The notes under the pieces were generated by a model, which saw only the letters and a program-made list of their open reading frames with translations, did no database searches and was not told where the DNA came from. DNA of 64,000 nt. Origin: Mesorhizobium sp. 65-26 (GTDB lineage: Bacteria > Pseudomonadota > Alphaproteobacteria > Rhizobiales > Rhizobiaceae). Below are positions 40,355-53,868 of the stretch, piece after piece (positions within the stretch are counted from its first letter, which is position 1; the number at the start of each line of letters is the position of its first letter). A program made the position numbers and the translations under genes. The DNA is taken from positions 371,269 through 435,268 of the forward strand of contig MKVL01000032.1 of NCBI GenBank assembly GCA_001899205.1, written 5' to 3'.

Positions 40355-40430
40355 GGGGCTGTAGCTCAGCTGGGAGAGCGCATCGTTCGCAATGATGAGG
40401 TCAGGGGTTCGATCCCCCTCAGCTCCACCA
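40355..40430 (+). tRNA. tRNA-Ala(CGC)
   Basis: A complete 76-nt cloverleaf including the encoded CCA. The acceptor stem ggggctg pairs with cagctcc (one G-U); the D-arm is gctc...gagc, the anticodon stem catcg/tgatg with loop ttcgcaa gives anticodon CGC (Ala, codon GCG), and the T-arm is aggggttcgatccccct. Its 3' end is the insertion site of the island that follows. Confidence 0.97.
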
Positions 40431-40605: not shown

Positions 40606-40997
40606 GGTGCATTGCCTCGAACGTGACGTGGCGGAGGCACGATTTCCCACCACAGACCCCATGCAGGCCCGTCTGAAGACCTATACAAAAGGGTACGGGC
40701 GCGCAGAGGACACGGCTCCGCTACCGAAGACCTACAGCCAAGCACCCTGACCGGGGCTCCCCCTAGACGGCGGGGGTAAGATACCCGAACAAAATTTTAC
40801 GGTTTTGAGGCAGAGGACCGCATGTGCCAACCATGCAATCTTGGAGGATACAGGTGGCGTTTGCGGAAACTGAACCGTAGCGACTTGCCCGATCACCGCA
40901 TGCCTCGCCACCCAGCGCAGATTCACACAACAGACGAATGCCAGACTATAACTTCCATGATACCAATCTAAGTCTCTTGTACTGCGGAGGGGCAAAA

Positions 40998-42308
40998 GTG
41001 GCCAAAGGTGGAACGATATTCAAGTCGCTCAAAATCAATGGATGGCGACAGTTTCAATCTATAGACATTGATTTTCATCCAAGATTGACCGTTATAACCG
41101 GGACAAATGGCGCAGGAAAAAGCACGATACTGAATATATTATCGATGCACGTTGGCATATCAAGGCAGTATTATGCACTACCTCATAGACGCGGAAACAT
41201 ATTGTCGTATCTACCTGGAATTTTCAATATTCCGAAGAAGCTTTTCAAATGGATAGTGCCAGACAGAACTCCATTTCAACAGTACCTAGGCGAAATTTCC
41301 TATAGCAATGATATTACTTCAAAAATCGTGATACCAACAAGTCCCGGCCTGGCCTATGATGTGACTCTCGAAAATCAGCAAAACATCGTCGGTTTTCATA
41401 TGCCATCTCATAGATTGCTACCCCATTATCAGCCGGTTGCTAATTTATCATTCTCCGGCATCGAACCAAACGTAAGTTTTCAAATGCTGATTGGAGAGAC
41501 TTATTCCGGATTCCGTGGTCAAAATACCGGAAACTCCCTTCTATACCAACTAAAGCAGATTCTAGCCTCATGGGCAGCAATTGGAGAAGGCAATTCATCC
41601 CTTAGGCCACGCTCCAATCAACTGGCAGCTTACAATGGCTTCATAGATGTCCTGAGGCGAGTCATTCCAAAAGAAATAGGCTTCCAAGGGATAGAAATCG
41701 AGCCTCCGGATATCCTTGTCAAAACCGATACAGGAACGTTCATTATAGACTCGTGCTCTGGCGGCTTACTTACGATGATCGAAATAGCCGCCCTGATATA
41801 TACCTGCTCACTTCGAGATGACGTGACTGGAAAGCGATTTGTGGTGACGTTCGATGAGCCGGAAAACCATTTACACCCGTCCTTGCAACGATCTCTACTT
41901 CCGACTCTCGTTAACACATTCCCCGACGTCCAGTTCATTGTCGCAACGCACAGTCCTTTCGTTGTTTCCTCACTCAAGGACTCCTCGGTTTATGTCTTGA
42001 GATACATGGATAGTGAAAAATCGTTGTCGGGCCAAGATTTGATACCGATCGCGAACCGCCGCATTGAGAGCCTTAAGCTTGAGAGTTTTGATCGATCAGG
42101 AAATGCCAGCGAGATCCTCCGCGAAGTACTCGGCGTAACTGTTACCTTCCCACAATGGGTCGAGGCAGACTTGGAAACGATCGTAAAGAAATACCAGAAT
42201 TCCGCTTTAACTGAAGAAGTCATCAAGGCTATCAAATCGGATATCGATAAGGCAGGCTTGGAGGAGATGTTCTCAGAGGCGCTCACGCTTATAGGCGAAC
42301 GTAAATGA
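40998..42308 (+). CDS. AAA family ATPase, Septu PtuA-like
   Basis: A 436-residue cytosolic ATPase of the AAA15/21 (OLD-like) type. Walker A GTNGAGKST is at residues 35-43; the Walker B region VVTFDEPENHLHP carries D286 and E287, followed by FIVATHSPFVVSS. No TOPRIM nuclease domain is visible. The GTG start is supported by ggagg seven bases upstream; a longer ATG reading at 40938 lacks a good site. It overlaps the HNH gene by 4 bp. An ATPase of this type directly followed by a small HNH nuclease is the Septu (PtuAB) anti-phage arrangement; assignment to Septu rather than a related pair is inference. Confidence 0.85.
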   Translation: MAKGGTIFKSLKINGWRQFQSIDIDFHPRLTVITGTNGAGKSTILNILSMHVGISRQYYALPHRRGNILSYLPGIFNIPKKLFKWIVPDRTPFQQYLGEISYSNDITSKIVIPTSPGLAYDVTLENQQNIVGFHMPSHRLLPHYQPVANLSFSGIEPNVSFQMLIGETYSGFRGQNTGNSLLYQLKQILASWAAIGEGNSSLRPRSNQLAAYNGFIDVLRRVIPKEIGFQGIEIEPPDILVKTDTGTFIIDSCSGGLLTMIEIAALIYTCSLRDDVTGKRFVVTFDEPENHLHPSLQRSLLPTLVNTFPDVQFIVATHSPFVVSSLKDSSVYVLRYMDSEKSLSGQDLIPIANRRIESLKLESFDRSGNASEILREVLGVTVTFPQWVEADLETIVKKYQNSALTEEVIKAIKSDIDKAGLEEMFSEALTLIGERK

Positions 42309-42949
42309 TCATGCTGACGAAGGGCGCGGAACCCGCCATCCTGGCGAAAAATTCGGAAAAATGGACAACTGAGTTGGAGGCCGAAATACTGAATGGCGGC
42401 GACAACGTCTCCTATAGAACATCTAAGTATAATACGAAAGAAATAAAATCGGCACTGCAAGAAGAGGTAAACGGTAAATGCGCTTACTGTGAATCTAAAT
42501 TACTACATGTCACCTACGGTGATATCGAGCACATAGTTCCAAAGAGCACCGACATAAAGCTGACATTCGCCTGGCCGAATCTAACACTCGCGTGTGACAA
42601 ATGTAATACGTATAAGGCCGCAAAGATCGGAATCTATGATCCGTACGGCAGCAATCCTGAGCTAGACTTTCGATTCTACGGTCCGATGATTTCACATAGC
42701 CCTGGAAGTGACGTTGCTGAGATAACTCACATAGAGCTTGAACTGAATAGAGCGCAACTTCTGGAGCGTCGTCATGAGAAAATCAAAAGCCTGTTGACGA
42801 GTTTGGATAGGCTCGCGAATATTGCTGACAATCAGATGAGAGAATTGTTGAAGAACTCCATAATATCTCACGAAAGCTCTCCAGAGAGGGAGTTCTCAGC
42901 ATGTTTGAAATCTCTCATTGAGACAAAGAGGCAGCGAGGTGAGATTTAG
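42305..42949 (+). CDS. HNH endonuclease, Septu PtuB-like
   Basis: A 214-residue nuclease with a zinc-bound HNH fold. The zinc cysteines are C59 and C62 (CAYC) and C97 and C100 (CDKC), and the catalytic region is DIEHIVPKS (E75-H76), followed by WPNLTLACDKCN. The 5' end overlaps the ATPase gene (ATGA), so the two are coupled. The C-terminal part is helical without a recognised domain. In Septu-like systems the HNH protein is the effector that cuts nucleic acid when the ATPase senses infection. Confidence 0.88.
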   Translation: MIMLTKGAEPAILAKNSEKWTTELEAEILNGGDNVSYRTSKYNTKEIKSALQEEVNGKCAYCESKLLHVTYGDIEHIVPKSTDIKLTFAWPNLTLACDKCNTYKAAKIGIYDPYGSNPELDFRFYGPMISHSPGSDVAEITHIELELNRAQLLERRHEKIKSLLTSLDRLANIADNQMRELLKNSIISHESSPEREFSACLKSLIETKRQRGEI

Positions 42950-46969: not shown

Positions 46970-48571
46970 TCAGGCCCTGGCAACATCGTCGAAGCTCAGG
47001 CTGAAACGCTGGAGATATTTGCGCAAGCGATCGGCATCGTTGCCGCTCGCCTTCTTCAGCCGCGAAACCGAGAACAGTTTTCGCCCCGCGGCGCTGATCG
47101 AGCTGCTGTCGCGGCAGGCCCGGATGACGGCGGCGAGTTGCACACGGTCGAACGGGTCGATACCGGCCGCGCCGTCCGGCCCGAGCACCTCGCGCAGCAC
47201 GCTGTCTCCATCGCCGCCCTCGACAGGGCCCGCGCCCCAGAGCAAACCCAACCGCCCGATCTCGTCACGCACGGCCTCTTCGTTGATGCGGCCGAGCGGC
47301 GCCAGCGTCGCCATGCGTGTGATCGAAGCGGAGAGGTCGCGGAAATTCGCCCGCCACAACGCTTCCGGCGCCACCGCGAATTTGAGGTAGAGGTCCCTGG
47401 CCTCCTTGTTGAAGGTCACGTTCTGTCCCTCGCGCTCGCCATAGCGTCGCAGCTCGAACTCGAGATTGGGCTCGATGTCCTCCTTGCGGTCGCGAAGCGC
47501 CGGCAGCTGGAATGTCCACAGGTTCAGCCGCGCGAACAGGTCCTCGCGGAATTTGCCCGCACGCACGTCGATCGACAGATCGCGATTGGTGCCGGCTAGA
47601 AGCTGGAAGTCCGACGTCACGTCCCGGTCGGCTCCGACCGGCAGGAAGCGTTTCTCCTCGATGGCCCTGAGGCACATGGCCTGCTCGTCGAGGCCGAGCT
47701 CGCCGATCTCGTCGAGGAACAGCACGCCCTTGCTGGCCGACTTCATCAGCCCGGCGCGTTCGCCCTGCGCGCCGGTGAAGGCGCCCTTGACGTGCCCGAA
47801 CAGCGTCGACATCGCCTGATCGCCACGCAGCGTCGCGCAATTGACCTCGATGAAGTCGCCCGACACCTGCCGCTGCGCCTTCTTGAGCTCATAGATACGA
47901 CGCGCCAGCTGCGACTTGCCGGCGCCGGTCGGGCCGGTGAGCAACACAGGCGCGCGCGAGCGGATCGCCACCTTCTCGATCTGGTCGATCATCCGGTTGA
48001 AGGCGGGATTACGGGTCGCGATGCCCGATTTCAGGAAGGAGGTGGCCTCGTCACGCTCGGCCGCGAAGCGGGTAGCTATCGCGTCGTAGCGCGACAGGTC
48101 GAGATCGATGATCGAGTAGCTGCCGGCGGGATAATCACCGCCCTCCTTGCGTGGTGAAAGCTGCAGCAGCCGCGCCGGTATGAACCGCGCTTCGGTAAGA
48201 AGGAACCAGCAGATCTGCGCCACATGCGTGCCGGTGGTTATGTTGACGAGATAATCCTCCTTCTCGGGATCGAAGCTGTAGGCGCGGGCGAATTCGCGCA
48301 GGCCCGTATAGACCTCGCTGAAATCCCATGGGTCCTTCATGCTTATGATATGCCGCCTGACCTCCGTCGCCGGCGATATCACCTCGATATCGGAGATGAT
48401 CTGTCTCGCCAGCCGCTCCGAACGATCGTCATGGAGAAGCTCGAGCCGGTCGATGAACAATCCCGGCTGCTGGCAAAGCGCGACGGTCGGGCGCCATTTC
48501 TTCCAACGGTCCTCGCGGCCGCTTGCGTCGAGCGTCGTTCCCAGAATGCCGATCGCTACGCGCCTTTTCAT
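46970..48571 (-). CDS. rtcR: RtcR, sigma-54-dependent activator of RNA repair
   Basis: A 533-residue enhancer-binding protein. The N-terminal RtcR domain (about residues 1-185) is a CARF-type sensor in this family. The AAA+ domain has Walker A GPTGAGKSQLA, the sigma-54-contact motif GAFTGA in HVKGAFTGAQ and Walker B VLFLDEIGELG. A C-terminal HTH follows. It senses RNA damage ligands and switches on the divergent operon. It lies head to head with the Ro60 gene across 200 bp. Confidence 0.96.
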   Translation of the reverse strand: MKRRVAIGILGTTLDASGREDRWKKWRPTVALCQQPGLFIDRLELLHDDRSERLARQIISDIEVISPATEVRRHIISMKDPWDFSEVYTGLREFARAYSFDPEKEDYLVNITTGTHVAQICWFLLTEARFIPARLLQLSPRKEGGDYPAGSYSIIDLDLSRYDAIATRFAAERDEATSFLKSGIATRNPAFNRMIDQIEKVAIRSRAPVLLTGPTGAGKSQLARRIYELKKAQRQVSGDFIEVNCATLRGDQAMSTLFGHVKGAFTGAQGERAGLMKSASKGVLFLDEIGELGLDEQAMCLRAIEEKRFLPVGADRDVTSDFQLLAGTNRDLSIDVRAGKFREDLFARLNLWTFQLPALRDRKEDIEPNLEFELRRYGEREGQNVTFNKEARDLYLKFAVAPEALWRANFRDLSASITRMATLAPLGRINEEAVRDEIGRLGLLWGAGPVEGGDGDSVLREVLGPDGAAGIDPFDRVQLAAVIRACRDSSSISAAGRKLFSVSRLKKASGNDADRLRKYLQRFSLSFDDVARA

Positions 48572-48728: not shown

Positions 48729-48744
48729 TGGCACGCGGCTTGTA
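48729..48744 (+). promoter_or_regulatory. Sigma-54 (-24/-12) promoter of the RNA-repair operon
   Basis: The sequence TGGCACGCGGCTTGTA matches the consensus TGGCAC-N5-TTGCW with one difference. It ends 33 bp before the Ro60 start codon and faces the operon. The adjacent rtcR gene encodes the expected activator. Confidence 0.9.
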
Positions 48745-48777: not shown

Positions 48778-50337
48778 ATGGCAAACAAATCCGTGTTTGC
48801 GACGATAGCAGGAAAGCTGCTCCCGCGAGCTGACGCCAGGAACCACCACGGCGCCCAGGCCTACAGCCTGTCGCCCGAACAGGCCCTGGCTCAGCTCGCG
48901 GCGACGGGAACGTTCAACGCCACATTCTACGCCGAGCCGCGCGAGCAGCTCGACGAGGTGCTGAAGCTTGCTTGGCAGGTCGAGCCGGCTTTTCTGGCAA
49001 AGACCGCCGTCCACGCTTTCGAGCAGGGCTACATGAAGGACATGCCGGCGCTGTTGCTTGCCGTTCTGTCCTCAATGCAGGGCGACGAGTTCAACCGCGC
49101 CTTCGCCCGGATCGTGCGCAACGGCAAGATGCTGCGCAACTTCGTGCAGGTGATGCGCTCCGGTGCCACCGGTCGCAAGTCGCTCGGCACGCGGCCGAAA
49201 CGGCTCGTCCAGGCCTGGCTCGAGCATGCGTCGGACTTCGAGATCATGCGCGCCGCGGTCGGCAACGACCCGTCGCTGGCCGATGTCGTCAGGATGGTTC
49301 ACCCGAAGCCGGCCTCGGCCTCGCGTGAAGCACTCTATGGCTACCTCATAGGCAAGCCGCATGACGTCGCCGTGCTGCCGGAGGTGGTGAAGGCTTTCGA
49401 GGCCTTCAAGCGCGACCCGTCGCTGCCCGTGCCGGAAGTGCCATTCCAGATGCTGACCTCGATGCCGCTGTCGCGCGAGCATTGGGTGCAGATCGCGGAG
49501 ACGGCCGGCTGGCAGATGCTGCGGCAGAATCTGAACACCTTCGGCCGCAACGGCGTGTTCGAGGTGGAGGGCTTTGCCGAAAAGCTGGCGGCGCGTCTGC
49601 GAGACCCGGAGGAAGTCCGGCGCGCCAGGGTGTTTCCGTACCAGCTCATGGTGGCCTTCACCATGACCAGCGCGCAGGTGCCGGAAATGGTCAGGGACGC
49701 ACTGCAGGACGCGATGCAAGTCGCGCTCGGCAACGTGCCCAGGGTCAAGGGCAATGTGGTCGTCTGCCCGGACGTGTCCGGCTCGATGTCCTCGCCGGCG
49801 ACCGGCTATCGCAAGGGCGCGACCTCGGCGGTGCGCTGCATCGACGTGGCTGCCCTGGTGGCTGCCGCGCTGCTGCGCCGCAACCCGACGGCGAGGGTGT
49901 TGCCGTTCGAGAACGATGTGGTGGATGTCCATCTCAACGCTCGCGACACGGTGATGACCAACGCGGCGAAGCTGGCGGCCGTCGGCGGCGGCGGGACCAA
50001 CTGCTCGGCGCCGCTGGCGCAGCTGGTGCGTGAGAAGGCTGATGTCGACCTGGTGGTGTTCGTTTCGGACAACCAGTCCTGGGTGGACGCGACGCAGAAC
50101 GCGCATCAGGGCACGGCGACGATGCAGGAATGGCAGAAGCTGAAGGTGAACAACCCGAAGGCCAGGCTGGTCTGCATCGACATCCAGCCCTACGCCACGA
50201 CGCAGGCCAAGCCGCGGGCCGACGTCCTGAACGTCGGCGGCTTCTCCGACCGCGTCTTCGACGTGGTCGGGACGATGCTGTCCTCGAACGGGGACCCGGA
50301 CCATTGGGTGCGCACGATCGAGGCGGTGGAGCTCTAG
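48778..50337 (+). CDS. rsr: Ro60-family (TROVE) protein, bacterial Rsr
   Basis: A 519-residue TROVE-domain protein. The TROVE ring of helical repeats covers about residues 10-340 (e.g. EAVRRAR... region at 270-290), and a vWA-like domain follows with MIDAS residues in DVSGSMS, GGGGTNC and VSDNQSW. Bacterial Ro60 proteins bind Y RNAs and misfolded RNA and feed RNA to exonucleases. The start MANKSVFATIAG is preceded by aggac. It is the first gene after the sigma-54 promoter and precedes the RNA array and rtcB. Confidence 0.95.
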   Translation: MANKSVFATIAGKLLPRADARNHHGAQAYSLSPEQALAQLAATGTFNATFYAEPREQLDEVLKLAWQVEPAFLAKTAVHAFEQGYMKDMPALLLAVLSSMQGDEFNRAFARIVRNGKMLRNFVQVMRSGATGRKSLGTRPKRLVQAWLEHASDFEIMRAAVGNDPSLADVVRMVHPKPASASREALYGYLIGKPHDVAVLPEVVKAFEAFKRDPSLPVPEVPFQMLTSMPLSREHWVQIAETAGWQMLRQNLNTFGRNGVFEVEGFAEKLAARLRDPEEVRRARVFPYQLMVAFTMTSAQVPEMVRDALQDAMQVALGNVPRVKGNVVVCPDVSGSMSSPATGYRKGATSAVRCIDVAALVAAALLRRNPTARVLPFENDVVDVHLNARDTVMTNAAKLAAVGGGGTNCSAPLAQLVREKADVDLVVFVSDNQSWVDATQNAHQGTATMQEWQKLKVNNPKARLVCIDIQPYATTQAKPRADVLNVGGFSDRVFDVVGTMLSSNGDPDHWVRTIEAVEL

Positions 50338-50343
50338 ACATCG

Positions 50344-50370
50344 GGTCCCGGCGGCGCGTCCGCCGGGACC
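50344..50370 (+). promoter_or_regulatory. GC hairpin directly after the Ro60 stop
   Basis: A perfect 11-bp stem (ggtcccggcgg with ccgccgggacc) and a 5-nt loop begin 7 bp after the stop codon. No T-run follows, so it is more likely an mRNA 3'-protecting or processing element than a terminator. It separates the coding part from the RNA array. Confidence 0.6.
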
Positions 50371-50386
50371 ATCGGAACGGAATTCA

Positions 50387-50522
50387 GGGCATGACGAATG
50401 CCGATGGAACTACAGGCTGTTACCCTCCAGGTCGCGGGTTCGAATCCCGTCGGGTCCGCCAATTTGGACCCGTAGCTCAGCGGATAGAGCAGGACGTTTC
50501 GTCAAACCTTGTCGTCATGCCC
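50387..50522 (+). ncRNA. YrlA-like Y RNA module 1 (tRNA mimic)
   Basis: The closing stem pairs gggcatgacga with tcgtcatgccc. The 5' strand runs on as atgccgatggaactacagg, and ccttg precedes the 3' strand. Inside are a T-arm (gcgggttcgaatcccgt) and a hairpin cgggtcc/ggacccg with a tRNA-style CCA, so the acceptor halves are joined 3' to 5' through a short loop. A D-arm-like gtagctcagcggatagagca follows. The order is a circularly permuted tRNA with no anticodon arm of normal type. It matches the tRNA-like module of bacterial YrlA RNAs. Confidence 0.82.
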
Positions 50523-50576
50523 GGCGACTTATGCGCGGCTTCGGCCGAGACTTGAGAAGAAAAGAACCAGATACGA

Positions 50577-50707
50577 GGCATGGCGGATGCCGGTGGAACT
50601 ACAGCTTCAGGTGCTCCATACGCAGGTTCGATTCCTGCCGTGCTCTATCGGGCATGTGGCCGAGTGGTTAGGCGGGAAACGTTTCACCAACACCTTGCCG
50701 CCATGCC
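50577..50707 (+). ncRNA. YrlA-like Y RNA module 2
   Basis: The closing stem is ggcatggcgg/ccgccatgcc. The shared motif gtggaactacag follows the 5' strand. The T-arm is gcaggttcgattcctgc, and the acceptor-like hairpin pairs cgtgctc with gggcatg (two wobbles). The D-arm-like part tggccgagtggttaggcg resembles tRNA-Leu/Ser D-arms. The 3' strand is preceded by caccttg. Same layout as module 1 but a different core. Confidence 0.8.
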
Positions 50708-50716
50708 CCTCACGAA

Positions 50717-50846
50717 GCCGCGGCGAATGCATGATGGAACTACAGCTCCAAGAACGGGATGCTCCGTGAGGTTCGACTCCTCACCTTGGCGGCGCTCTCT
50801 GGCACGAGCGGGACTCCCGGGTTTCATCTTCCTTTGTCGCCGCGGC
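50717..50846 (+). ncRNA. YrlA-like Y RNA module 3
   Basis: The closing stem is gccgcggcga/tcgccgcggc, with gaatgc and gatggaactacag inside. The T-arm is tgaggttcgactcctca. The acceptor-like hairpin is shorter (cgctc/gagcg). The D-arm part is less clear. The 3' side has cctttgtcgcc. The core is more degenerate than modules 1 and 2. Confidence 0.72.
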
Positions 50847-50858
50847 GAATGGATCAAA

Positions 50859-50890
50859 GCATGATACCGGAAATCCATTTGGGATCATGC
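50859..50890. repeat. Degenerate gcatgat palindrome inside the RNA array
   Basis: The outer ends gcatgata and ggatcatgc are almost complementary and resemble the ends of the repeat at 1862-1910. It lies in the spacer between RNA modules 3 and 4, so an insertion between modules is possible. Confidence 0.4.
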
Positions 50891-50898
50891 GCGGGACA

Positions 50899-51023
50899 TG
50901 GCGAATGCAGGCAGGATTACAGGTAGCGCGCCCGCCGGAAGGCGGGAGGTCGGGTGTTCAAATCACTCCCTCGCTCTGCGGAGCGGGGTGGCGCAGTCAC
51001 CGTCTTGCCAATCCTTGTCGCCA
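50899..51023 (+). ncRNA. YrlA-like Y RNA module 4
   Basis: The closing stem is tggcga/tcgcca, followed by atgcaggcaggattacagg. A hairpin cccgccggaaggcggg precedes the T-arm gggtgttcaaatcactc, and the acceptor-like hairpin pairs cctcgctc with gagcgggg. The D-like segment is gtggcgcagtcaccg. The 3' strand is introduced by atccttg. The additional GC hairpin sits where a tRNA variable arm would be. Confidence 0.75.
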
Positions 51024-51035
51024 GCCGATTGAACA

Positions 51036-51128
51036 GGGCGAATGCCTGCGGGAATACATTGGGATCTGGTGGTTCGAATCCACCGTCGATCACAGGATCG
51101 ATCGGTTTCTCGCATCGACTTGTCGCCC
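51036..51128 (+). ncRNA. YrlA-like Y RNA module 5 (short)
   Basis: The closing stem is gggcga/tcgccc with atgcctgcgggaatacattg inside (the shared motif is diverged to ggaataca). The T-arm is ggtggttcgaatccacc and the acceptor-like hairpin is tcgatc/gatcga around acag. Little D-arm is left. The 3' strand is preceded by gacttg. At 93 nt it is the shortest of the seven. Confidence 0.7.
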
Positions 51129-51163
51129 GCGCGTGAAATGCAGTTGAGACATTGAAAGACGAA

Positions 51164-51297
51164 TGGCGAATGCAGGCAGGACTACAGGGATAGAGCGTCC
51201 GCGACGGATGTCGTGGAAGGTCGGGTGTTCAAGCCACCCCTTCCATCTTCAGGGTGGAAAGTAGCTCAGTAAATTGTCTTGCCGCCCGTTGTCGCCA
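51164..51297 (+). ncRNA. YrlA-like Y RNA module 6
   Basis: The closing stem is tggcga/tcgcca, followed by atgcaggcaggactacaggg. The T-arm is gggtgttcaagccaccc, and the acceptor-like hairpin is ttccatc/ggtggaa around ttcag. The D-arm-like segment agtagctcagtaaattg is well preserved. The 3' strand is preceded by ccgttg. Its start is very like module 4. Confidence 0.75.
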
Positions 51298-51308
51298 GAC
51301 CGGATCGA

Positions 51309-51453
51309 GGACGAATGCTACGGGACTACAGGTAGACGCAGCCTGCTCAAAGTGAAATGTCGAGAGCGGGTGCCGAAAGGCGTGAGGGTTCGTGTCCCTC
51401 CTTCGCAAGAAACTGCGAAGTGGCGGAAAAGCGTCTCGTGACTCTTGTCGTCC
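51309..51453 (+). ncRNA. YrlA-like Y RNA module 7
   Basis: The closing stem is ggacga/tcgtcc, extended outward by atcga/tcgat after one bulged base. The 5' strand continues as atgctacgggactacagg. The T-arm is gagggttcgtgtccctc, and the acceptor-like hairpin cttcgca/tgcgaag is perfect. The D-like segment tggcggaaaagcgtctcg is weak. The 3' strand is preceded by ctcttg. It ends 36 bp before the rtcB start. Confidence 0.74.
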
Positions 51454-51489
51454 GTCGATTGAAATGACGACCGACCGAAAGTGAAAGAC

Positions 51490-52881
51490 ATGACCGAGAT
51501 TGTAAGCGGACAGGATTTGATCGACGCCGGAATGCAGCAGGGCAAGTGGTTTGCCCGGGCGCTCGTGGCGGCCAACGACGTGCTGGAGAAGGGCGGGTCG
51601 CATGAGGATGCGATCGAGACCGCGCGGGGCTTCGCGCCGCCGCCGGCCATGCCGCTCCATGCGAGCGGCGCGCTGCCGCTGCACCTCAACATCCAGGCCG
51701 AAAACCCGCACGAGGCCGCCAACGTGGAAGCCGTCACGCGCAGCATGATCGAGCTGATGCGTACACCCGTGGTGCGGGCCGGCGCCATCATGCCGGATGC
51801 CTGCCCGGCGGGTTCGCCCGGCACCATTCCGGTTGGCGGCGTGGCCGTGTCCGAGGGCATCCATCCCGGCATGCATTCGGCCGACATCTGCTGCTCGATG
51901 GCGATCTCGGTGTTTCCCGGCGTGGCGCCTGCCGCGCTGCTCGACGCCGTGCATGCCGTGACCCATTTCGGGCCCGGCGGGCGCCAGCGCGGCCAGCAGT
52001 TCCGGCCTTCGGCGGACCTCTTCGAGCGCTTCGACGCGAACGCCTTGCTGCGCGACCTGAAGAGCGCGGCGATCGAGCATTTCGGCACGCAGGGCGACGG
52101 CAATCATTTCGCCTATGTCGGCACGCTGAAGTCGAGCGGCGAAACGGCGCTGGTGACCCATCACGGGTCGCGCGCGCCGGGCGCGCGGCTCTACGCCAAG
52201 GGCATGAGGATCGCGGAAGGCGTGCGCCGGACGTTGTCGCCGGAGACCCTGCCGCAGAACGCCTGGATTCCGGCCGACACGCCGGAAGGCGATGAGTATT
52301 GGGAGGCTCTGCAGGCGATCCGCGAATGGACCAAGGGCAACCACCTGCTCATCCACGATCTCGCTGCCGAGAAGTTGTCGGCGAAGGTCTCGGACCGGTT
52401 CTGGAACGAGCACAACTTCGTCTTCCGCCGTTCGGACGGCCTGTTCTACCACGGCAAGGGCGCCACGCCGGCCTTCGACGACTGGGCCCACGACGCGACC
52501 GATCTGACGCTGATCCCGCTCAACATGGCGGAACCGGTGCTGATCGTGCGCGGCAAGAACGCCGGGAACGGCCTTGGCTTCTCGCCGCACGGCGCCGGGC
52601 GCAATTTCTCGCGCACCCAGCACCGGCGCATGCAGGCCGGGCGCGGCGACGCCGAGATCTTCGCCGAGGAGACCAAGGGTATCGATGCCCGGTTCTTCAG
52701 CGGGGTGACCGATATTTCGGAGCTGCCGAGCGCCTACAAGAACGCCGCGTCGATGCGCCGCCAAATCGAGCATTTCGGCCTGGCGGAGATCGTCGACGAG
52801 GTGCTGCCCTACGGCTGCATCATGGCCGGCGATTGGGAAGCCAACGCGCCGTGGCGCAAGAAGAAGCAGCAGCGCTCCTGA
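51490..52881 (+). CDS. rtcB: RNA-splicing ligase RtcB
   Basis: A 463-residue RNA ligase that joins 2',3'-cyclic-phosphate or 3'-phosphate ends to 5'-OH ends using GTP and manganese. The metal and nucleotide-site motifs are HSADICCSM (C in the D-x-C position), GDGNHFAYVG, THHGSRAPGARLY and SPHGAGR. The C-terminus is complete. The ATG at 51490 was used; a GTG at 51481 is also in frame. No rtcA gene follows, so the locus has Ro60, Y-like RNAs and ligase but no cyclase. Confidence 0.95.
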   Translation: MTEIVSGQDLIDAGMQQGKWFARALVAANDVLEKGGSHEDAIETARGFAPPPAMPLHASGALPLHLNIQAENPHEAANVEAVTRSMIELMRTPVVRAGAIMPDACPAGSPGTIPVGGVAVSEGIHPGMHSADICCSMAISVFPGVAPAALLDAVHAVTHFGPGGRQRGQQFRPSADLFERFDANALLRDLKSAAIEHFGTQGDGNHFAYVGTLKSSGETALVTHHGSRAPGARLYAKGMRIAEGVRRTLSPETLPQNAWIPADTPEGDEYWEALQAIREWTKGNHLLIHDLAAEKLSAKVSDRFWNEHNFVFRRSDGLFYHGKGATPAFDDWAHDATDLTLIPLNMAEPVLIVRGKNAGNGLGFSPHGAGRNFSRTQHRRMQAGRGDAEIFAEETKGIDARFFSGVTDISELPSAYKNAASMRRQIEHFGLAEIVDEVLPYGCIMAGDWEANAPWRKKKQQRS

Positions 52882-52888
52882 GTGCTGC

Positions 52889-52924
52889 AAAGGTCCGGAC
52901 GCCATAGCGCCCGGACCTTTTTGC
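52889..52924 (+). terminator. Rho-independent terminator of the rtcB operon
   Basis: A 10-bp stem (aaaggtccgg with ccggaccttt) and a 12-nt loop, followed directly by more T residues. It starts 8 bp after the rtcB stop and ends the operon. Confidence 0.88.
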
Positions 52925-52938
52925 CGCCGTAGCGGTGT

Positions 52939-53868
52939 CTAACCGGCGACGCGGGAAAGCCGCTCGGGATCCGACGCCGGGAGGCCGGGCCTGTCGGCTT
53001 CCCGGCGCGAAACCGAATTGCGCACCAGCGCGATCGTCTCGCGGCCGGCGGTGGAGATCGCCCACGGGCTGTCGAGCCCGGCAACCATGAATTCCTCGAT
53101 GCCGAGCGTGGCGTAGGACAGCAGCGTCAGCGCCGCCCGCGCGGGCGGATCCGCCAGCTCGACCGCCGGCCGCTCGAAGGCCGAATAACCGCTGGCGCCC
53201 AGCCGCACCGGCAGCGCGAACCGCAGCTTGCCAGCGCGGCCGTGCTCGGCGGCGACGGCCCGCACACGCGCCATCAGGCGCCCGACTTCATCGATCGAAC
53301 CCGGCGCGAGCTCGAAAACGTCGGCGTGGCGCCCCGCGACCTTGAGCGCCGTTCCGGAAGGGCCGCCAAGGCGGATGTCGATGGAAACGCCGCGCGATCC
53401 CTTGCGCGGCACGAAACCGCCCTTGACGCTGTAGAAGGCGCCTTCATGGTCGAAGGGACGCTCGTTCGACCACAACCGCTTCAGCAGTACCAGATATTCG
53501 TCGATGCGCTGCCAGGCGGCCACGTGGCCTGCCGCGTCGTCGCCGGCGGTCTCACCGAGCACGCGCAAGGCAACGCGCCCCTTGCCTCTGGCGTCGAGCG
53601 CCGCGAGCTGACGCGCGGCCGCTGTCGGCTCCAGGCTCGTCACGCGATGGCTGACGGCGATGTCCAGCGGCGACGCGCTGTCAAGCACGCTCGCGGCGCC
53701 CTCGATATTGGCAGGCAGACCCTTCGGGTCATCGACGACGACCTTGTTGAAACCTGCGTCTTCCAGGCGAGACAGCATCCTCGCCGCCTCGGCGACATCG
53801 CGAAAGAACGGGGCTCCGGCCTCATTGCGCCATGTTGCGGCTGGAACATGCGTGAACTCGATCGGCAT
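52939..53868 (-). CDS. LLM class flavin-dependent oxidoreductase
   Basis: A 309-residue luciferase-like (TIM-barrel) flavin monooxygenase. The N-terminal MPIEFTHVPAATWRNE and the segments ALRVLGETAGDDA and DIRLGGPSGTALKVAGRHAD fit SsuD-type alkanesulfonate or related enzymes. The start was set at MPIEFTHV because ggagg lies 8 bases upstream; an earlier ATG has a poorer site. It is convergent with rtcB. The substrate is unknown. Confidence 0.85.
   Translation of the reverse strand: MPIEFTHVPAATWRNEAGAPFFRDVAEAARMLSRLEDAGFNKVVVDDPKGLPANIEGAASVLDSASPLDIAVSHRVTSLEPTAAARQLAALDARGKGRVALRVLGETAGDDAAGHVAAWQRIDEYLVLLKRLWSNERPFDHEGAFYSVKGGFVPRKGSRGVSIDIRLGGPSGTALKVAGRHADVFELAPGSIDEVGRLMARVRAVAAEHGRAGKLRFALPVRLGASGYSAFERPAVELADPPARAALTLLSYATLGIEEFMVAGLDSPWAISTAGRETIALVRNSVSRREADRPGLPASDPERLSRVAG

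Follow-up and report, generated by a model that had tools for sequence, protein, structure and literature searches.

A 64,000-nucleotide (nt) stretch of the Mesorhizobium sp. 65-26 genome (contig MKVL01000032.1, positions 371,269 to 435,268; hereafter the window) carries an array of seven Y RNA-like modules, M1 to M7, on its + strand (approximately 50387-51456), between the genes for Ro60 (Rsr) and an RtcB-family RNA ligase. The modules have a Ro-type closing stem in common and differ in the tRNA-derived part that it bears. Two architectures hold most of a tRNA body, one opened on the anticodon side (M1 and M2) and the other in the D loop (M4, M6, and probably M7). The D-loop-open class is a second topology of the module at this locus and is supported by covariation. 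Our tentative reading, to which we give slightly less than an even chance, is that the array would supply a Ro60-bound set of tRNA decoys or adaptors, expressed along with RtcB under tRNA cleavage.

The array was initially found by reading the sequence. A relaxed detector, defined by the 5' motif plus a matching closing stem, recovered seven modules in the gap (a stricter first version found 5/7). When the gap was dinucleotide-shuffled 1000 times, it averaged 0.015 modules and never contained more than 1. Elsewhere in the window, the same detector gave one match on the + strand, at 2847, and one on the - strand. This supported the proposal of the initial annotation that seven modules lie between Ro60 and rtcB. 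Conserved closing-stem strands (GAAUG...ACUACA / UUGUCG-type) were present in 7/7 modules, with the correction that the GCGAAUG reported for the 5' side does not apply to M2, which reads GGCGGAUG instead. The further claim that the seven were copies of a single layout was refuted by their differing architectures, since M3 is without the acceptor hairpin, M5 is without the D arm, and M4, M6, and probably M7 have a split D stem.

We have compared the modules with the Rfam YrlA model (RF02553, cut-off 69 bits). Only M1 reached the gathering score (72.1 bits); M2 (58.7 bits), M5 (44.1 bits), M4 (30.6 bits), and M6 (27.7 bits) were detected below it at E ≤ 1, a threshold at which M3 and M7 were undetected. 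Hence, M1 is filed as YrlA, and M2 to M7 are classed only as Y RNA-like modules from this locus; of the YrlA-type identity first given to all seven, the Ro-type closing stem was retained throughout and the passing Rfam score by M1 only. Our own covariance model, R1, whose training set includes M4 and M6 of the window, recovered at least 6/7 modules, M3 being absent among the 300 listed of its 379 matches. The R1 scores were 143.5 and 116.4 bits for the training sequences M4 and M6, respectively, and 54.8 bits for M7. Folding of each module gave z-scores from -1.9 to -3.1 (M7 shortened to 150 nt) and was in agreement with the proposed structures in part: the single-sequence minimum-energy folds missed the T arm in M2 and M5 and the D stem in M6, and these elements are therefore assigned from comparison.

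M1 (50387-50522) corresponds to an anticodon-side-open tRNA mimic with an Arg-like D arm and an encoded GCCA, its acceptor hairpin (50451-50472) reading CGGGUCC - G CCA - AUUU - GGACCCG. M2 (50577-50709) is likewise anticodon-side-open, with a Ser-like D arm. In both modules the acceptor hairpin is followed by the D-arm hairpin, as in YrlA, and the opening is located at the 5' edge of the anticodon loop. The YrlA order of T arm, acceptor hairpin, and D-arm hairpin was thus found in M1 and M2; it was not found in M4 to M7, where the D stem is split or absent, nor in M3, where the acceptor is missing.

In M4 (50896-51027) and M6 (51161-51301), the strand ACAGG(GA)UA-GCGC (or GAGC) stands directly 3' of the 5' Y strand, and UG/UA-GCGC (or GCUC)-AG is located 3' of the acceptor. 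Such flanking strands would be compatible with a tRNA D loop and D stem divided in two beside G18G19, the Y stem being placed in the opening. Between the D-stem halves come the anticodon stem, AGGUC, the T arm, and a small-loop acceptor hairpin. The D stem of M4 is Pro-like, with its 3' strand GCGC at 50926-50929 (after GGUA) and its 5' strand GCGC at 50991-50994 (between UG and AG), and the anticodon stem is capped by GGAA. M6 has the D stem GAGC/GCUC and an anticodon stem capped by GGAU. In a 31-row alignment of D-loop-open modules, the anticodon-stem loop counted by script was of 4 nt in 23 rows (14 of them GNRA) and of 7 nt in two.

For the comparative analysis we have used 80 named Ro60 loci, which are the best 80 of 502 and thus biased to close relatives; with the window they make 81 sources. 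Alignment A2 contains 30 distinct D-loop-open rows, with the structure written by hand from the window row. In A2, 94.0% of the cells paired, compared to 86.0% in shuffled alignments and at most 60.4% with slid partners, and 17/35 pairs had changes on both sides (10.6 in shuffles). The count of further pair types was less striking (36 vs 31.6), with 14/500 shuffles equally high. The split D stem paired at all four positions in 30/30 rows (100% of cells); it varied at one of its four pairs (CG 16, AU 14), and this variation is the difference between the M4 and M6 types. Pairing of the acceptor was 77%, partly owing to misalignment of M6.

At 71.5 bits or more, R1 gave 78 matches in 55/81 sources including the window, that is, in 54/80 named loci. 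Setting aside the 12 sources taken as Mesorhizobium (the window, L120-L129, and L134) left 55 matches, picked and aligned by R1 itself, and the split D stem paired at all four positions in 55/55. The second D-stem pair was AU in 51, CG in three, and GC in one of these rows, and the third was GC in 52 and AU in three; two of the rows come from L132, which is labelled Mesorhizobium and is the same contig as the training rows from L098. Alignment A3, formed by the best 150 of the 379 R1 matches, of mixed types and fitted to the R1 structure, had 95.6% of its cells paired (70.4% shuffled), with all 35 pairs changing on both sides. Compensatory base changes in relatives, named beforehand as the test of the array, were thus found in A2, in A3, and among the R1 matches.

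M3 (50716-50848; z-score -3.1) combines a T arm with a D-arm-like hairpin (loop UCUGGCAC) in a 13-sequence alignment, its acceptor stem being unclear, and M5 (51033-51131), also read from an alignment, is a minihelix of T arm and acceptor hairpin only; both are reduced forms. Between M3 and M4, a palindrome-like stretch, AAAGCATGATACCGGAAATCC...GGGATCATG, occupies 50850-50895, and a pattern search for a possible rhizobial repeat found only four copies of its core in the genome. M7 (51305-51456), present in 11/81 sources, resembles a class II tRNA-Leu. Its GGUAGACGC and UGGCGGAA are compatible with a 3-base-pair split D stem, and the module is probably opened inside the D loop. It also has a long variable arm, UGCCGAAAGGCGUG (51371-51384). 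Another palindromic insert was seen in the M7 anticodon-arm region of L129. None of M1 to M7 holds an intact anticodon arm plus loop: the Y stem opens the arm, a different loop caps it, or it is missing altogether; the anticodon arm with a 7-nt loop expected of a functional tRNA was lacking, the two 7-nt loops called by script among the 31 D-loop-open rows being those mentioned above.

To assign isotypes, module halves were compared with the 41 distinct tRNAs of the same genome and with 100 mononucleotide shuffles. Four tRNA-Arg led for the D-arm half of M1 (scores 44, 42, 42, and 38; next 34), while Asn and Arg tied at 50 for its T-arm half. The 5' half of M7 scored 56 with tRNA-Leu(UAG), 34 with the best non-Leu tRNA, and 30 with the best of the 100 shuffles; its variable arm is identical to that of Leu(UAG) and occurs in no other of the 41 tRNAs. 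This points to M7 as a Leu-type mimic, the UAG match being suggestive only. Among the genome's own tRNAs, GGUAGCGC of M4 is found only in tRNA-Pro and GGAUAGAGCG of M6 only in tRNA-Arg, but these words are short and weak evidence of the isotype.

The encoded N-CCA was examined in 167 modules from the window and the 80 loci, selected for complete pairing of the T arm, a TTCRA-type loop, and 6/7 or more acceptor pairs, a sample that lacks M3, M6, and M7 of the window. A D hairpin only was called in 90 modules, a split D stem only in 42, neither in 34, and both in one, which was left out of the N-CCA counts; D-loop-open and D-hairpin calls thus coincided in 1/167. N-CCA followed the 7-nt acceptor strand in 57/90 D-hairpin modules, in 2/42 with a split D stem, and in 0/34 with neither. 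Among distinct loops of the D-hairpin class, it was present in 40/70, where the discriminator base varied and the linker measured 1-46 nt, and a U stood directly before the acceptor 5' strand in 30/40 N-CCA loops vs 9/30 others. Linkers of 20-46 nt from the CCA to the 5' acceptor strand were noted in 6/40 distinct N-CCA loops (for example L168:6596-6769, read by eye). Long inserts in M1-type modules would be expected if the spacer were free to grow or were removed.

In the 57 N-CCA modules, the tRNA register extended upstream over five V-loop, five anticodon-stem, and seven loop-like bases. The anticodon-stem pairs were formed in 56 (27-43), 55 (28-42), 35 (29-41), and 25 (30-40) modules; base 33 was U in 41/57 and base 37 was A in 45/57. 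CCU or UCU, as in tRNA-Arg, stood at the anticodon in 8/57 of these loops, counted by eye. With this register, M1 looks like a tRNA-Arg that was cut at the 5' edge of the anticodon loop and had its ends joined.

In the 80 named loci, the relaxed detector found 312 modules within 2 kb downstream of Ro60 on the same strand, no module on the opposite strand of those regions, and three matches inside the Ro60 genes themselves. Three loci had no module, four had one, 11 had two, 13 had three, 15 had four, 21 had five, nine had six, and four had seven. With at least two modules in 73/80 loci, arrays are common and seven is the upper end of the range, so that the copy number, first taken as unusual, is not exceptional. 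In each of the 13 other Ro60-positive genomes of the genus, the 5' motif occurred five to seven times in the corresponding gap, and the same module types recurred within the genus. R1 matches above 110 bits were located at Ro60 in 14/14 Ro60-positive genomes of the genus, and no match exceeded 44.1 bits in its Ro60-negative genomes; every match over 44.1 bits within the genus was located at Ro60. A Ro60 match was found in 26/394 genomes at the family level, one of them partial, and in 34/297 at the order level, some of them weak or partial.

The setting of the array agreed with an RNA-repair operon, as first proposed. Ro60 (48778-50337, + strand; 519 amino acids, start codon picked from the sequence) was identified by Pfam vWA_Ro60 (65 bits) and TROVE (25 bits). 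It is 93% identical to the best-matching named Mesorhizobium records, and its best-scoring solved protein was the Deinococcus radiodurans Rsr structure 2nvo (E 7.5e-26). The rtcB-family ligase gene (51490-52881, + strand; 463 amino acids; Pfam RtcB 111 bits) follows after a gap of ~1.15 kb. It encodes a divergent RtcB that falls far under the NCBIfam cut-offs, and a second RtcB gene is found elsewhere in the 6.84-Mb genome. The sigma-54 activator gene rtcR (46970-48571, - strand) was recognized by Pfam RtcR (270 bits) and by NCBIfam RNA_repair_RtcR (812 bits, cut-off 650). A candidate -24/-12 sigma-54 promoter, TGGCAC-N5-TTGT, is located at 48729-48743 on the + strand, with one mismatch to TGGCAC-N5-TTGC; a TGGCAY-N5-TTGH site within 250 nt 5' of Ro60 occurred in 50/79 named loci, a count without background control. 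A Septu-type defence pair, PtuA (40938-42308) and PtuB (42305-42949), was called by PADLOC ~4 kb from rtcR and is adjoined by a tRNA-Ala (40355-40430).

The divergent rtcR and the rtcB of an RtcR-controlled RNA-repair operon were thus both present. No rtcA accompanied them: Pfam RTC had zero matches genome-wide in a search whose control detected RTC in Escherichia coli. Some RtcR-controlled RNA-repair operons may lack rtcA. The absence of terminators between the modules, part of the initial annotation, was borne out by a + strand free of terminator-like sites from 48989 to 53200. Ro60, the seven-module array, and rtcB probably share one RtcR/sigma-54-controlled transcript.

We have compared the array with YrlA and its operon in Salmonella. 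The YrlA RNA (RF02553; Salmonella YrlA, PDB 6CU1) has the same AAUGC...ACUAC/UUGUCG closing stem, T arm, acceptor hairpin, and D arm, and excerpts of PMC11472068 describe a circularly permuted match of 6CU1 to tRNA. It differs from the window in that seven modules of several architectures stand here in series, that the D-loop-open M4 and M6 score far from the Rfam cut-off, and that the M1-type module encodes an N-CCA; when the enterobacterial contig L220 was read by eye, its YrlA match showed no N-CCA. The Salmonella rsr-yrlBA-rtcBA operon, as far as excerpts of PMC7790460 and PMC9879122 describe it, also has a divergent rtcR, a sigma-54 promoter, Ro60, Y RNAs, and rtcB; it names two Y RNAs, compared to seven in the window, whose genome has no RtcA by Pfam RTC and has a divergent RtcB. 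The array is accordingly of a known kind, the bacterial Y RNA. In a literature search that did not cover the main bacterial Y RNA papers, we recognized no report of D-loop-open modules, N-CCA, or long arrays, and we provisionally regard the variant with D-loop-open and N-CCA modules as novel.

L220 (OR851267.1), labelled Salmonella phage, has the enterobacterial order Ro60-YrlB-YrlA-rtcB. A third Y-type module was seen between yrlA and rtcB (L220:924-1037), with 48.8 bits by R1, 31.7 bits by Rfam YrlA (under the cut-off), and a fold z-score of -2.3; it was unmatched in E. coli genomes.

Under our favored reading of the array as decoys or adaptors, RtcR would sense tRNA 5' halves, and Ro60 would be made together with varied, anticodon-defective tRNA bodies. 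The closing stem is the predicted Ro60 dock, on account of its motif, and would carry a different rebuilt tRNA piece in each module. The docked modules could occupy or recruit proteins that recognize tRNA bodies, such as nucleases, PNPase, and modifying or processing enzymes. This would spare intact or repairable tRNAs or hand over broken ones. Hughes et al. proposed the tRNA-like domain of YrlA as a competitive inhibitor of anticodon nuclease and, alternatively, that Rsr and Y RNAs act in tRNA decay (excerpts of PMC7790460). A varied set of tRNA bodies with opened, capped, or missing anticodon arms would agree better with the competitive-inhibitor idea than additional copies of a single tether would. 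In a more specific form, which we consider rather unlikely, the second topology with its replaced anticodon loop and the N-CCA modules would make up a decoy library against anticodon nucleases, with some members turned into two-piece RNAs by RNase P, and RtcB would meanwhile repair the tRNAs that these nucleases cut.

Several observations weigh against the decoy or adaptor reading. Ro60 was present in only 14/99 genomes of the genus, and 44 Ro60-negative genomes had weak R1 matches (~29-44 bits, maximum 44.1). M1 retains a 7-nt anticodon-loop-like segment, on one side only, and is thus not strictly anticodon-free. The isotype assignments of M2, M4, and M6 depend on short D-arm words. Neither half of M3 exceeded its shuffles, nor did the 3' half of any of M4 to M7, and the 5' half of M2 tied with its best shuffle. 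M7 favored Leu(CAG) over Leu(UAG) in four of the five other genomes compared, one of which is labelled Mesorhizobium (3-5 Leu tRNAs recovered per genome); Leu(UAG) mimicry was thereby ruled out as a general rule. Finally, full induction in Salmonella requires RtcA (excerpts of PMC7790460), and with none in the window genome the sensing step may differ.

The modules could instead be gene-dosage copies of the PNPase-Ro60 tether (RYPER), steering the decay of structured RNA, with the differences in their tRNA parts mattering little. A bacterial Y RNA is described to tether Rsr to PNPase (excerpts of PMC8394870 and PMC7790460), and the Ro-type stem is common to all modules; yet dosage would leave unexplained why separate architectures, each with its own covarying tRNA parts, extend across genera, and why one class has N-CCA. 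We therefore consider this alternative unlikely, although worth keeping in view. Neutral expansion, in which tRNA fragment-Y stem fusions duplicate and drift while one module does the work, is compatible with the range of 0 to 7 copies among loci, the five to seven in the genus, and the reduced M3 and M5. It is improbable given that the closing, D, anticodon, T, and acceptor stems stay paired through changes on both sides and that the same module types recur within the genus. That the modules are split or permuted genes for working tRNAs is highly improbable: M1 can be read as a permuted tRNA-Arg with CCA, but a full anticodon arm was read in no module, the loops at that place are mostly of 4 nt in the D-loop-open class, and tRNA-Arg genes are present elsewhere in the genome. 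Working permuted tRNAs were rejected on the absence of a complete anticodon arm.

A possible, if doubtful, addition that is compatible with our favored reading of tRNA decoys or adaptors is that RNase P cleaves the N-CCA (M1-type) modules in the acceptor loop, which would leave a Y RNA in two pieces with a mature CCA end. An analogue is the alphaproteobacterial two-piece tmRNA, which has a permuted acceptor hairpin with a T arm, CCA, and a linker. The free discriminator, the variable linkers, and the U before the 5' acceptor strand in most N-CCA loops are suggestive of such processing. On the other hand, the CCA could in part be a legacy of an ancestral tRNA, and N-CCA is missing in 20/73 sources with a D-hairpin module, including the non-alphaproteobacterial L196-L199. 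The Rfam permuted tmRNA model matched M1 at chance level (18 bits, cut-off 47, E 0.31), and its ribosome-rescue part was unseen in the window module.

In the array, seven tRNA-derived parts are naturally presented on the same type of stem, which would allow a module-by-module test of which tRNA part matters. The D-loop-open modules of the window score poorly in Rfam YrlA, yet by R1, at 71.5 bits or more, one is carried by more than half of the named Ro60 loci (54/80). In the M1-type modules, a specific cleavage site is predicted from the encoded N-CCA.

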